Part shown: positions 1 to 4,999 of the stretch, in pieces | Position numbering within the stretch: the first letter of the stretch is position 1 | Layout: each line of letters starts with the position of its first letter | Made by a program: the position numbers and the translations under genes | The notes under the pieces: generated by a model | What the model saw: only the letters and a program-made list of their open reading frames with translations | Told to the model about the DNA's origin: nothing | Databases searched by the model: none | From: a bacterium | Lineage (GTDB): Bacteria > SM23-31 > JAUVVT01 | NCBI GenBank assembly: GCA_030616165.1 | Contig: JAUWXV010000255.1 | Location: forward strand, 1-5,231 | Reading direction: 5' to 3' | Length of the DNA: 5,231 nucleotides

Positions 1-1535
1 CTTATATTTCTATCGCCAAGGATAAAGATTTAAAAAATGGTAGAAAAATTATTGAAAAAATAAATTCCGGTTTTTTTAAATTTATAGTATTAAAAAATAT
101 TAAAATATTAGAAAAATTGAAATCTTTTCCATCTGAAAATATTAAGTACATAACATTAGGAATTGAAAGTGTCGATTTTAAAAATGGCCTTCTATATATA
201 AAGGATTTAATAAATTATTCTGGTAAGATTCCAATTGTTATTCTTATTTCCAATCCTTCTCCGGAAATAAGAGAAAATATAATCAAAACTCTTAATCTAA
301 AACGGGTGAAGGTTTTTGTCAGAGGCTTTGATAGACCAAACCTTTGTCATATGGTCATTAAAGGTGAAGATAAACTGGAAAAGATTATCGATGTAATAAA
401 TAAGGTCAGCGGGTCGGGATTGATTTTCGTGGATTCAAAACAAGATGCTTACCAGATACGTGATTTCCTGAAAGAAGAAAATATATCTTCAGAAATATAT
501 GCTGATGACGCTGAAAATTTAAAGAAAATTGCTGGAAATTTTCATAAAGGAAAGACCAAAGTTCTGATAACCAATCGAGAATTTTATAATAATATCAAAA
601 AGACAGATATAAGGTATGTGATACATTATTCTCTTCCTTTTTCCTTGACTGAATACTATTTTGAGTCGGGGATCGCAGGATTGGATGGGAAAAAAAGCTA
701 TTGCATTTTACTCTATCATCCAAGAGACAGGTATAAATGTGAAGAGAAGATAAGAGAAAAATTCCCTGAAGAATATTCTGAAGAAAGAAATCTTGCTTTT
801 TCTATGCTTGAAGTATTGGAAGACTATATATTTTCAAACGCCTGCAGAAAGAGTTATATCCTTTCATACTTCGGAGACGAGGAGGTAAAGGAAAGATGTG
901 GAATTTGTGATGTTTGTGTTGGGTATAAAAGGGAATTAATGTTAAAGAAATATGACATAAATCTAATAAAGATAATCCTTAAATGTATAACAGAATTGAG
1001 GGAGAAATTTGGAATAAATACGGTTGTTGATGTGCTGCGGGGAAAAATGGGGGAAAAAATCCAGCAGTTTAATCTCAACAGAGCTTCCACATTCGGCATG
1101 CTTAAGGAACTCGACAGAAAGATAATAAAGGAAAATATCAACAGCCTCATCCTTGACAGATATATTTCCGTCAGGAGAGGAGTATATCCAACGCTTGAAT
1201 TGACACACTGGGGGAAAAACGTAATAAAGGAAGAAGAAATATTTGAGATAAAACTTCCGAAATTTATCGACCGAAAAGTTGATAAACCATTCGACCCGGT
1301 TCTATTTGAACAACTGAGGTTAGTCAGAAGAAAAGTCGCCAAAAGGTTAGACCTTCCAACATTTCAAATATTTCTTGATAGAGTATTACAGGAGTTGGCT
1401 ACATACCTTCCGGAGACAGAAGAAGAGATGGAAAAATTAAAGGGCGTCGGAAAAACAAGGATGGAACTTTACGGAAAAAAATTTATTAATGCAATAAAAG
1501 AGTATAAAAAGAAAAAGGAGATGTTGGAAAAATAA
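1..1535 (+). CDS. recQ: RecQ-family protein with degenerate helicase motifs, 5'-partial
   Basis: The reading frame is open back to the window edge (first full codon at 3), so the gene starts outside; the TTG at 117 is internal. 510 residues are visible; about 90-100, including Walker A, are missing. Against RecQ from memory, residues 20-280 follow the two RecA-like lobes (FDRPN at nt 327-341 is kept). However, DEAH reads IESV (nt 162-173), motif III ALTATA is ILISNP, motif IV YHAGL is YADDA, motif V AFGMGID is EFYNNIK, and motif VI ETGRAGRDG is ESGIAGLDG (nt 663-689), losing both arginines. All four zinc cysteines remain (nt 843, 897, 906, 915; CGICDVC). The RQC winged helix (about nt 950-1240; FGINTVVDVLRG) and HRDC domain (about nt 1290-1520; LKGVGKTRMELYG) are well conserved. 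The family unwinds DNA 3'-5' in recombination and fork repair. This copy probably binds DNA but cannot hydrolyse ATP. RecQ membership is near certain; inactivity is strongly inferred. The gene symbol denotes the family. Confidence 0.93.
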   Translation, partial: YISIAKDKDLKNGRKIIEKINSGFFKFIVLKNIKILEKLKSFPSENIKYITLGIESVDFKNGLLYIKDLINYSGKIPIVILISNPSPEIRENIIKTLNLKRVKVFVRGFDRPNLCHMVIKGEDKLEKIIDVINKVSGSGLIFVDSKQDAYQIRDFLKEENISSEIYADDAENLKKIAGNFHKGKTKVLITNREFYNNIKKTDIRYVIHYSLPFSLTEYYFESGIAGLDGKKSYCILLYHPRDRYKCEEKIREKFPEEYSEERNLAFSMLEVLEDYIFSNACRKSYILSYFGDEEVKERCGICDVCVGYKRELMLKKYDINLIKIILKCITELREKFGINTVVDVLRGKMGEKIQQFNLNRASTFGMLKELDRKIIKENINSLILDRYISVRRGVYPTLELTHWGKNVIKEEEIFEIKLPKFIDRKVDKPFDPVLFEQLRLVRRKVAKRLDLPTFQIFLDRVLQELATYLPETEEEMEKLKGVGKTRMELYGKKFINAIKEYKKKKEMLEK

Positions 1536-3329: not shown

Positions 3330-3911
3330 TTATTCATCATTTAACATAGTCCCTGACATTGTAGATATGCCAGAATGAAATAGTGTATCTTCATCGTAAC
3401 CTGCTTTCTTATGTAGTTTAGTAATCATTTTTTTAACATCTGTTTTAGCCCTCTCAGCATTCTCTAAAGTGCAATATTTTTCCCATTTAGTTTTTGGTAG
3501 TTCTTCTCGATAAATATCAAATTCATTGATTTTAATTTTCGTTTCAGTTAGAAACTCTGATTTTCCATGAGCGATGCTATTCCTGAAATTAAATAGATTT
3601 TTTATAGTCTGAAAAGGTCTTCTTGATTTATCAATTTTTAAACCTATATTATTTTCTATAACAATAAGTTTTTCTAACCAATGAAGTTTTTCAAGATCAT
3701 GCCAATCTTTTTTAAATCGTTTATCTCCTAAATGGTTTAAGTATGCTTCAAACGTAAAAGCAGAGAATAGAAGGCTTGCCATGTATTCATAAAAAACTCT
3801 TTTTTTGAGTTGTTTTTTAGACTTATCTCTTAAAATGGAAGATGCACAGTAAAGTTCTTGATACATTTTTACTGGCCTTTCCTTCTTTATCCTTATTTTC
3901 CTTTTATTCAT
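3330..3911 (-). CDS. HEPN-domain protein, putative RNase, 193 aa
   Basis: I chose ATG 3911 because AAGGTG lies 8 bases upstream; an in-frame GTG at 3920 would overlap that RBS. It ends at TAA 3332-3330. The central region is a HEPN-like helical bundle. A first helix (about residues 42-62, SLLFSAFTFEAYLNHLG) has the aromatic and glutamate pattern of HEPN families. It is followed by the signature NFRNSIAHGKSE, with RNSIAH at 110-115 matching the Rx4H/RNxxxH catalytic motif of HEPN ribonucleases. The first 40 residues and the tail (after about 150) are basic. There are no membrane segments. HEPN proteins often act as metal-independent RNases in toxin-antitoxin, abortive infection or CRISPR effectors, though some are only RNA-binding or scaffold modules. 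No nucleotidyltransferase (MNT) antitoxin lies beside it. A macro domain gene lies two genes upstream. The motif makes the domain call good; the actual activity is not shown. Confidence 0.75.
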   Translation of the reverse strand: MNKRKIRIKKERPVKMYQELYCASSILRDKSKKQLKKRVFYEYMASLLFSAFTFEAYLNHLGDKRFKKDWHDLEKLHWLEKLIVIENNIGLKIDKSRRPFQTIKNLFNFRNSIAHGKSEFLTETKIKINEFDIYREELPKTKWEKYCTLENAERAKTDVKKMITKLHKKAGYDEDTLFHSGISTMSGTMLNDE

Positions 3912-3919
3912 AAAATACA

Positions 3920-3923
3920 CCTT
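3920..3923 (-). promoter_or_regulatory. Shine-Dalgarno AAGG deciding the HEPN gene start
   Basis: AAGG followed by 8 bases and then ATG 3911. It favours the ATG over the upstream GTG at 3920, which overlaps this site and has no RBS of its own. Confidence 0.55.
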
Positions 3924-4175: not shown

Positions 4176-4185
4176 TAATTCCTCA
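4176..4185 (-). promoter_or_regulatory. Shine-Dalgarno overlapping the macro stop codon (translational coupling)
   Basis: TGAGGA: the macro stop codon TGA forms part of the RBS for the zinc-ribbon gene, whose ATG follows 7 bases after the stop. This decides the start at 4175. Confidence 0.65.
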
Positions 4186-4719
4186 TTTATTAGCACTGAA
4201 CATAGTTTCAAGTTCGCCCTTGAAAGCTTCTAATGTGCCGGTGTCATAAAGAACAAACACTATATTTCTTAAGTTTTTTGCCTCTTGAAGAAAATCAACC
4301 GCCTCTTTCAGCACAATATTAGCACATTTCTGGGAAGAGAATCCTCCCACTCCTGTACCTATAGCAGGAAATGCAATCGATGAGAGCCCTTTTTCTTCCG
4401 CCAATTTGAGGCTGTTGTATGTTGAGTTTTTAATTTTTGTCTGGTCGGTCTTGAGGTCCTGTCCCATTCCTGCCGCATGAATGACATATCTCGCTTTTAA
4501 ATCTCCTCCAGTTGTAATTACCGCTTTGCCAACTTCTACTGGTCCCTGTGAAACTGCTTCCTTCTCGATTATACCTCCACCTTTCCTTTTTATGGCTCCT
4601 GCAACTCCTCCTCCCATCCAGAGATGATTGTTGGCTGCGTTTACTATTGCATCGGTTTCCTGTTCCGTTATATCTCCCTGAATTACAGCAATCTCTCCAT
4701 TTCCAATTATTATTTTCAT
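4183..4719 (-). CDS. Macro domain protein (ADP-ribose binding/hydrolysing), 178 aa
   Basis: It is a single macro domain of usual full length, starting at ATG 4719 with AGGA 7 bases upstream. Family landmarks are all present in order: QGDIT (residues 14-18), the adenine/ribose loop IVNAANNHLWMGGGVAGAI (25-43), VGKAVITTGG (63-72), RYVIHAAG (77-84), and the phosphate-binding loop FPAIGTGVGGFS (117-128). Macro domains bind ADP-ribose and many remove it from proteins, nucleic acids or O-acetyl-ADP-ribose. Here the loop reads GGGVAG. MacroD-type hydrolases usually have GGGVDG with a catalytic aspartate, so this one is closer to the archaeal Af1521 type and may mainly bind, or hydrolyse by another route. 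It is the first gene of the leftward cluster and is coupled to the zinc-ribbon gene by a stop/RBS overlap. It is cytoplasmic, with no signal peptide. The domain call is near certain; the substrate is unknown. Confidence 0.95.
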   Translation of the reverse strand: MKIIIGNGEIAVIQGDITEQETDAIVNAANNHLWMGGGVAGAIKRKGGGIIEKEAVSQGPVEVGKAVITTGGDLKARYVIHAAGMGQDLKTDQTKIKNSTYNSLKLAEEKGLSSIAFPAIGTGVGGFSSQKCANIVLKEAVDFLQEAKNLRNIVFVLYDTGTLEAFKGELETMFSANK

Positions 4720-4794: not shown

Positions 4795-4999
4795 AATCCT
4801 AAACTCTAATATCTAAATAAATCCAAAATTCAAATTTCAATTATTATATACATATTCTAACTTTTCTATTGTGAATTAAATCTCTTTTGTAAATATAAAA
4901 GTTCTATCTTTCTAATTACGTTGTTTTGAATTTAGGATTTTGTCCGTTTGCCTGCCTGTCGGCAGACAGGAATTTGTTTAGAATTTAGTATTTAGTATT
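4795..4999. repeat. Imperfect long inverted repeat with internal GC-rich hairpin (MITE-like)
   Basis: The left arm (4795-4824, AATCCTAAACTCTAATATCT...) matches the reverse complement of the right arm (4969-4999) at about 22 of 28 aligned bases. The right arm has short tandem units (GAATTTAG, TATTTAG, TATTTAG). Inside, near the right arm, sits a hairpin: CCTGCCTG, TCGG loop, CAGACAGG (4951-4970, 7 of 8 pairs), a GC island in otherwise AT-rich DNA. No ORF lies within. It looks like a dispersed intergenic element. Confidence 0.55.
4951..4970. repeat. GC-rich stem-loop CCTGCCTG...CAGACAGG
   Basis: An 8-base stem with one mismatch closes a TCGG tetraloop. It is strongly GC-rich against its surroundings and has no T-run on either side, so it is not a standard terminator. 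From memory, similar CCTGCCTG hairpins recur between genes in several uncultured bacterial lineages. Confidence 0.6.

Follow-up and report, generated by a model that had tools for sequence, protein, structure and literature searches.

A gene at the edge of the analysed window, which is an entire contig of 5231 bases (G000:C148) from a genome of the candidate phylum SM23-31, encodes a RecQ-family protein whose motor has been lost while the protein itself was retained. The original prediction had read the sequence in this way, and the reading is now supported by the loss of motifs, by open homologues and by an omega far below 1. We consider it likely that this RecQ pseudo-helicase now serves, independently of ATP, to bind DNA junctions or as an adaptor during recombination or the repair of forks; both its DNA binding and its role we infer. 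As far as searched, the pseudo-helicase is specific to SM23-31.

The 510-aa fragment encoded in the window possesses, above cut-off and in recQ order, the Pfam domains Helicase_C, RecQ_Zn, RQC and HRDC (Table 1), and the window protein matches E. coli RecQ (PDB 1oyw) with an E value of 4e-34. The fragment also matches the recQ model TIGR01389 (E 2e-82), at 277.6 bits vs. an equivalog cut-off of 640.2, and scores 164 bits with TIGR00614 vs. a cut-off of 219.8. Homology over RecA2-Zn-RQC-HRDC together with a Cys4 zinc site identifies it as a RecQ-family protein by descent. As Walker A, DEAH, the motif VI arginines and the equivalog score all fail, we class it with pseudo-helicases derived from RecQ rather than with DNA helicases. 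The range of 1–950 assigned to it earlier covers the helicase and zinc part only; the protein extends to position 1535.

Table 1. Features of the pseudo-helicase gene, in window coordinates
Feature	Position	Strand	Basis
recQ-family pseudo-helicase gene, 3′ 510 codons	3..1535	+	ORF open at 5′ contig edge; Pfam, NCBIfam
Degenerate first RecA-like domain (RecA1), C-terminal part	3..305	+	Alignment; 44% identity to G001 vs. 70% in RQC
Former motif II, DEAH = GIES, then deletion of aromatic-rich loop	159..170	+	Residue alignment
Former motif III, LTATA = ILISNP	240..257	+	Residue alignment (ALTATA to ILISNP)
Degenerate second RecA-like domain (RecA2)	306..722	+	Helicase_C E 5e-7; alignment
Former motif IV, YHAGL = YADDA	498..512	+	Residue alignment
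Former motif V, AFGMGI = EFYNNIK	579..599	+	Residue alignment (AFGMGI to EFYNNI)
Former motif VI, QETGRAGRDG = FESGIAGLDG, both arginines gone	660..689	+	Residue alignment
Zinc-binding domain, Cys281, Cys299, Cys302, Cys305	723..962	+	E 1.3e-9; alignment
RQC winged-helix domain	966..1262	+	Pfam E 1.2e-22; only RQC match in window genome
HRDC domain; PPY-motif aromatic kept as F (PTF)	1299..1496	+	Pfam E 6.4e-17

A RecQ family model search of the window genome located the 5′ ~90 codons of the gene at the end of another contig (G000:C296), in a frame of 118 codons that matches RecQ positions 2–72 and holds motif 0 and the Walker A region. This frame corresponds to residues 1–91 of the homologue in G001 (isolate CSMAG_1171, a second genus of the window's family) at 59% identity, and the window resumes at residue 98. 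The G001 gene is uninterrupted (586 aa, 61–62% identity to the window protein), and on C296, as at the intact locus in G001, a divergent ECF-type sigma gene, named from sequence, lies upstream. Because of the uninterrupted G001 gene and this shared 5′-side synteny, we infer, in place of a sequenced join, that C296 and C148 carry one gene interrupted by a small gap in the assembly; the two contig ends have no exact overlap, with a few codons missing between them.

Alignment of the window protein with solved RecQs and fourteen further RecQ-family sequences placed substitutions at each of motifs III, IV, V and VI, in agreement with what had been read from the window. The reported loss of DEAH held as well, but its register shifted: the aligned residues are GIES, and the IESV named earlier lies one residue further on. 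The aromatic-rich loop that follows motif II (SQWGHDFR) is deleted in the window protein. Walker A, encoded upstream of the window, proved to be lost too, with MPPSKDKY on C296 where the canonical sequence is MPTGGGKS and GxGKS/T is expected. In G001 the same motifs are gone, partly through other residues (MPPSDIKY, GTES, VSVSNP, EFYRNL and FETCAAGIDG). The residue alignments revealed no canonical motifs displaced to nearby positions, and misalignment was rejected as a source of the apparent losses, as was an assembly artefact. A loss of catalysis is strongly supported by the sequences, the window protein having lost each class of residue on which ATP hydrolysis and its coupling depend. It is highly improbable that the motifs are merely rearranged and the protein still hydrolyses ATP. 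In both proteins of the window's family the glutamine of motif 0 and the lysine position of Walker A remain Q and K, so that some nucleotide binding may persist there, but DEAH, SAT, the glycines and Ser of the P-loop and the two arginines of motif VI have all gone, and the homologues of a sister family are without RecA1.

The zinc/RQC/HRDC half is intact, as had been predicted, all three domains being matched with significant E values (Table 1). The four zinc cysteines are invariant in 5/5 homologues, and REKFG and other residues are invariant across the family at about 30% identity. RQC and HRDC domains are established DNA binders with plain DNA-binding folds, which would also suit a winged-helix DNA-binding regulator, for instance of transcription, from which the repair role has gone. 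Weak matches over the RQC to NCBIfam RQC-minor DNA-binding families point in the same direction, although at 27 of 115 bits (NF041107) and 25 of 300 bits (NF041108) relative to the cut-offs they do not confer membership, and so does the divergent ECF sigma gene upstream in the window's family. We nevertheless regard a regulator as quite unlikely, because the protein retains its zinc domain, its RecA2 fold and its HRDC in recQ order, with RecA2 under constraint, and because the loci of the sister family showed no such sigma gene. More generally, the gene neighbourhoods of the homologues revealed no conserved operon partner.

Within the RQC, residue E331 (window 993–995) is the equivalent of Arg425 in the SCIYR sequence of E. 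coli RecQ. Every member of the family has Glu at this position (C-I-[TA]-E-[TL]-REKFG), which reverses the charge. As Arg425 is presumably part of the SSB-tail-binding pocket of E. coli RecQ, an SSB-recruited role like that of the E. coli enzyme may be altered.

The pseudo-helicase gene was found with an open frame in five of the six examined SM23-31 genomes, each from a different genus, so that four other genera of the phylum have open homologues sharing the losses. Most of these genomes are incomplete (70–79% complete for G001, G002 and G004); the sixth genome, without the gene, is 83% complete. Two of the genera, those of the window genome and G001, belong to one family, and G002, G004 (PL23a_bin.125, placed in SM23-31; PMC9868349) and G005 (bacterium SM23_31) to a sister family. 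Homologues in the sister family begin at RecA2 and span ~420–437 codons (435–437 in G002 and G004); in G005 a contig edge truncates the gene at its 3′ end. Upstream of the G004 and G005 homologues tblastn detected no RecA1 remnant, and the distance to the preceding peptidase gene in G005 is a mere 130 bases or so. The sister family thus appears to have discarded RecA1 altogether, demonstrably in G004 and G005 and probably in G002, where a contig edge lies close upstream.

In a tree with 31 full-length RecQs of other lineages, the five pseudo-helicases formed one clade (support 100/99) on long branches. Motifs I, II, III, V and VI are kept in all 31 of these RecQs, vs. none of the motifs in any of the five pseudo-helicases. 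A profile built from the five members scored them at 416–681 bits and any other RecQ at no more than 260 bits (386 genomes). Scanning genome contigs with the window protein alone gave no match; with a pattern from the family alignment, the scan covered 84,980 species genomes and matched only the four public loci of the known homologues. The viral contigs searched yielded no family member; canonical RecQs from them were added as alignment depth.

Codon-based maximum likelihood between the window and G001 gave an omega of 0.053 overall, 0.051 in the helicase half and 0.053 in the C-terminal half; these values are rough, because dS is saturated (4–7), but omega = 1 is still strongly rejected (2ΔlnL of 251, 97 and 170, respectively). 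Purifying selection on the pseudo-helicase is accordingly strongly supported, as judged from codon substitutions, and the helicase half shows no sign of a recent pseudogene. Between window and G001, the RecA1 remnant is the least and the RQC the most similar part by identity (Table 1), whereas in an active RecQ fusion protein of the same phylum (described below) the helicase part is the most conserved, at 86% identity vs. 75% overall: the conservation pattern of the pseudo-helicase is inverted relative to that of the active protein. Taken alone, the loss of the P-loop and of every catalytic motif might suggest a pseudogene sampled in several genomes while it decays. Such decay has very little probability given open frames in five genera, rejection of neutrality in every part, and zinc cysteines, REKFG and other residues that stay invariant across about 30% identity.

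AlphaFold models, whose reliability is limited by the small alignments from which they were built, were confident for RecA2, zinc, RQC and HRDC and poor for the RecA1 of G001; the RecA1-less G002 protein reached a predicted mean pLDDT of 83. Fold searches returned RecQ, BLM, WRN and RecQ1, including human RecQ1 D2-Zn-WH (6jtz), which was matched by the G002 model. Whole-chain matches had low global TM-scores and high rmsd, as expected if the domain arrangement differs, and hence support the domain folds only.

A canonical-type RecQ is also present in the window genome. This second protein (839 aa; G000:C124, L032:1477–3996) has intact motifs, a zinc site and a phosphoribosyltransferase domain before its HRDC; Pfam detected no RQC in it. 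The same RecQ-phosphoribosyltransferase fusion occurs in G005 (G005:C83), i.e. in two of the five pseudo-helicase genomes. In each genome that carries an RQC protein, none other than the pseudo-helicase was found. This distribution raises the possibility of a split RecQ, in which the fusion would depend on the pseudo-helicase, acting in trans, for RQC and for recognising junctions: the window genome and G005 have both proteins, the fusion is without RQC, and the pseudo-helicase is the sole RQC protein. We find this arrangement unlikely, as G001, G002 and G004 (70–79% complete), all of which have the pseudo-helicase, yielded no fusion, and as the two genes share no locus.

Among other repair genes, RecJ was present in all six phylum genomes and RecO in four. 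Two above-cut-off RecJ matches in G001 (G001:C420 and G001:C46) may reflect a paralogue or a mixed bin. PDDEXK_1 domains in an AddAB-like arrangement were found in two genomes: G004 has one open frame of 2056 codons with two PDDEXK_1 matches (G004:C249:22502–25705), a possible AddA-AddB fusion, vs. two separate frames of 1077 and 1059 codons on G000:C40.

Elsewhere in the window, the minus strand encodes a 196-aa protein (3330–3920) whose match to HEPN_MAE_28990 falls below threshold (E 0.0026) and a Macro-domain protein (4183–4719; PF01661, E 7e-34) that probably binds ADP-ribose. Inspection by eye revealed ATTTGTTGTATTTGTT twice, at about 1566–1592 and 2577–2602, between small minus-strand genes, and an intergenic, REP-like inverted repeat, CCTGCCTGTCGGCAGACAGG, at about 4951–4970.

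Our favoured reading, an ATP-independent junction binder or adaptor, would start from an ordinary RecQ ancestor with the order RecA1-RecA2-Zn-RQC-HRDC. The ATPase and coupling motifs would, most simply, have been lost in the common ancestor of the two SM23-31 families, after which the window's family would have retained both RecA folds in degenerate form and the sister family dropped RecA1. The Zn-RQC winged helix and HRDC may have kept their affinity for DNA junctions or for forks between ssDNA and dsDNA, so that the protein could act without ATP, as a structure-recognising adaptor or a roadblock; RecF-type recombination or fork repair is proposed as the setting because of RecJ in all six genomes and RecO in four. 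There it might recruit or gate another helicase or nuclease, by analogy with the pseudo-helicase parts of RecC and AddB. A bolder version, in which the motor-less protein replaced the RecQ motor in a bacterial phylum, working by structure recognition alone or in trans with the RQC-less RecQ helicase, is conceivable but tentative. If true, this replacement would mean that nature has uncoupled the reading of DNA by RecQ from the unwinding.

From bacteria to humans, RecQ proteins safeguard the genome, and the question of which of their tasks depend on ATP arises, e.g., for RECQL4. Active RecQ, the dead two-RecA form and the RecA1-less form would together constitute a natural separation-of-function series that tests zinc/RQC/HRDC without unwinding. 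Pseudo-helicases and ATPase-independent RecQ functions are already known. In open papers, no bacterial precedent was found for a RecQ pseudo-helicase, a truncated RecQ or RQC-minor; nor did we find in the open literature an earlier description of a phylum-wide, stepwise-reduced bacterial RecQ pseudo-helicase.

The pseudo-helicase resembles bacterial RecQ (TIGR01389; E. coli RecQ, 1oyw) in domain order, in its zinc Cys4 and in about 24–31% identity, but is without the ATPase and coupling motifs, without the aromatic-rich loop in the window protein, and without RecA1 in the sister family. HRDC mediates DNA-geometry-dependent, structure-specific behaviour of RecQ (PMC6773442). The sister-family proteins share their minimal RecA2-Zn-WH set with human RecQ1 D2-Zn-WH (6jtz); the latter, however, is an artificial truncation of an active enzyme, whereas the former are natural and additionally possess HRDC. 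Members of the RecQ family can fulfil essential roles in which ATPase activity is not required, as in the case of RECQL4 (PMC6636780; PMC13076768): mice with Recql4 K525A, in which the ATPase is lost, are normal, unlike those with truncations that also remove the C-terminus (PMC6636780). RECQL4 nevertheless keeps a working helicase, and other regions, at its N- and C-termini, account for the ATP-independent roles. RecC and AddB, finally, are motor-less helicase-like folds reused for DNA recognition, the helicase-like domain of AddB harbouring the Chi recognition locus (PMC4824097). Both are subunits of SF1-type helicase-nucleases and not RecQ-derived; as an analogy, the helicase-like domain of AddB is the nearest working one in bacteria.
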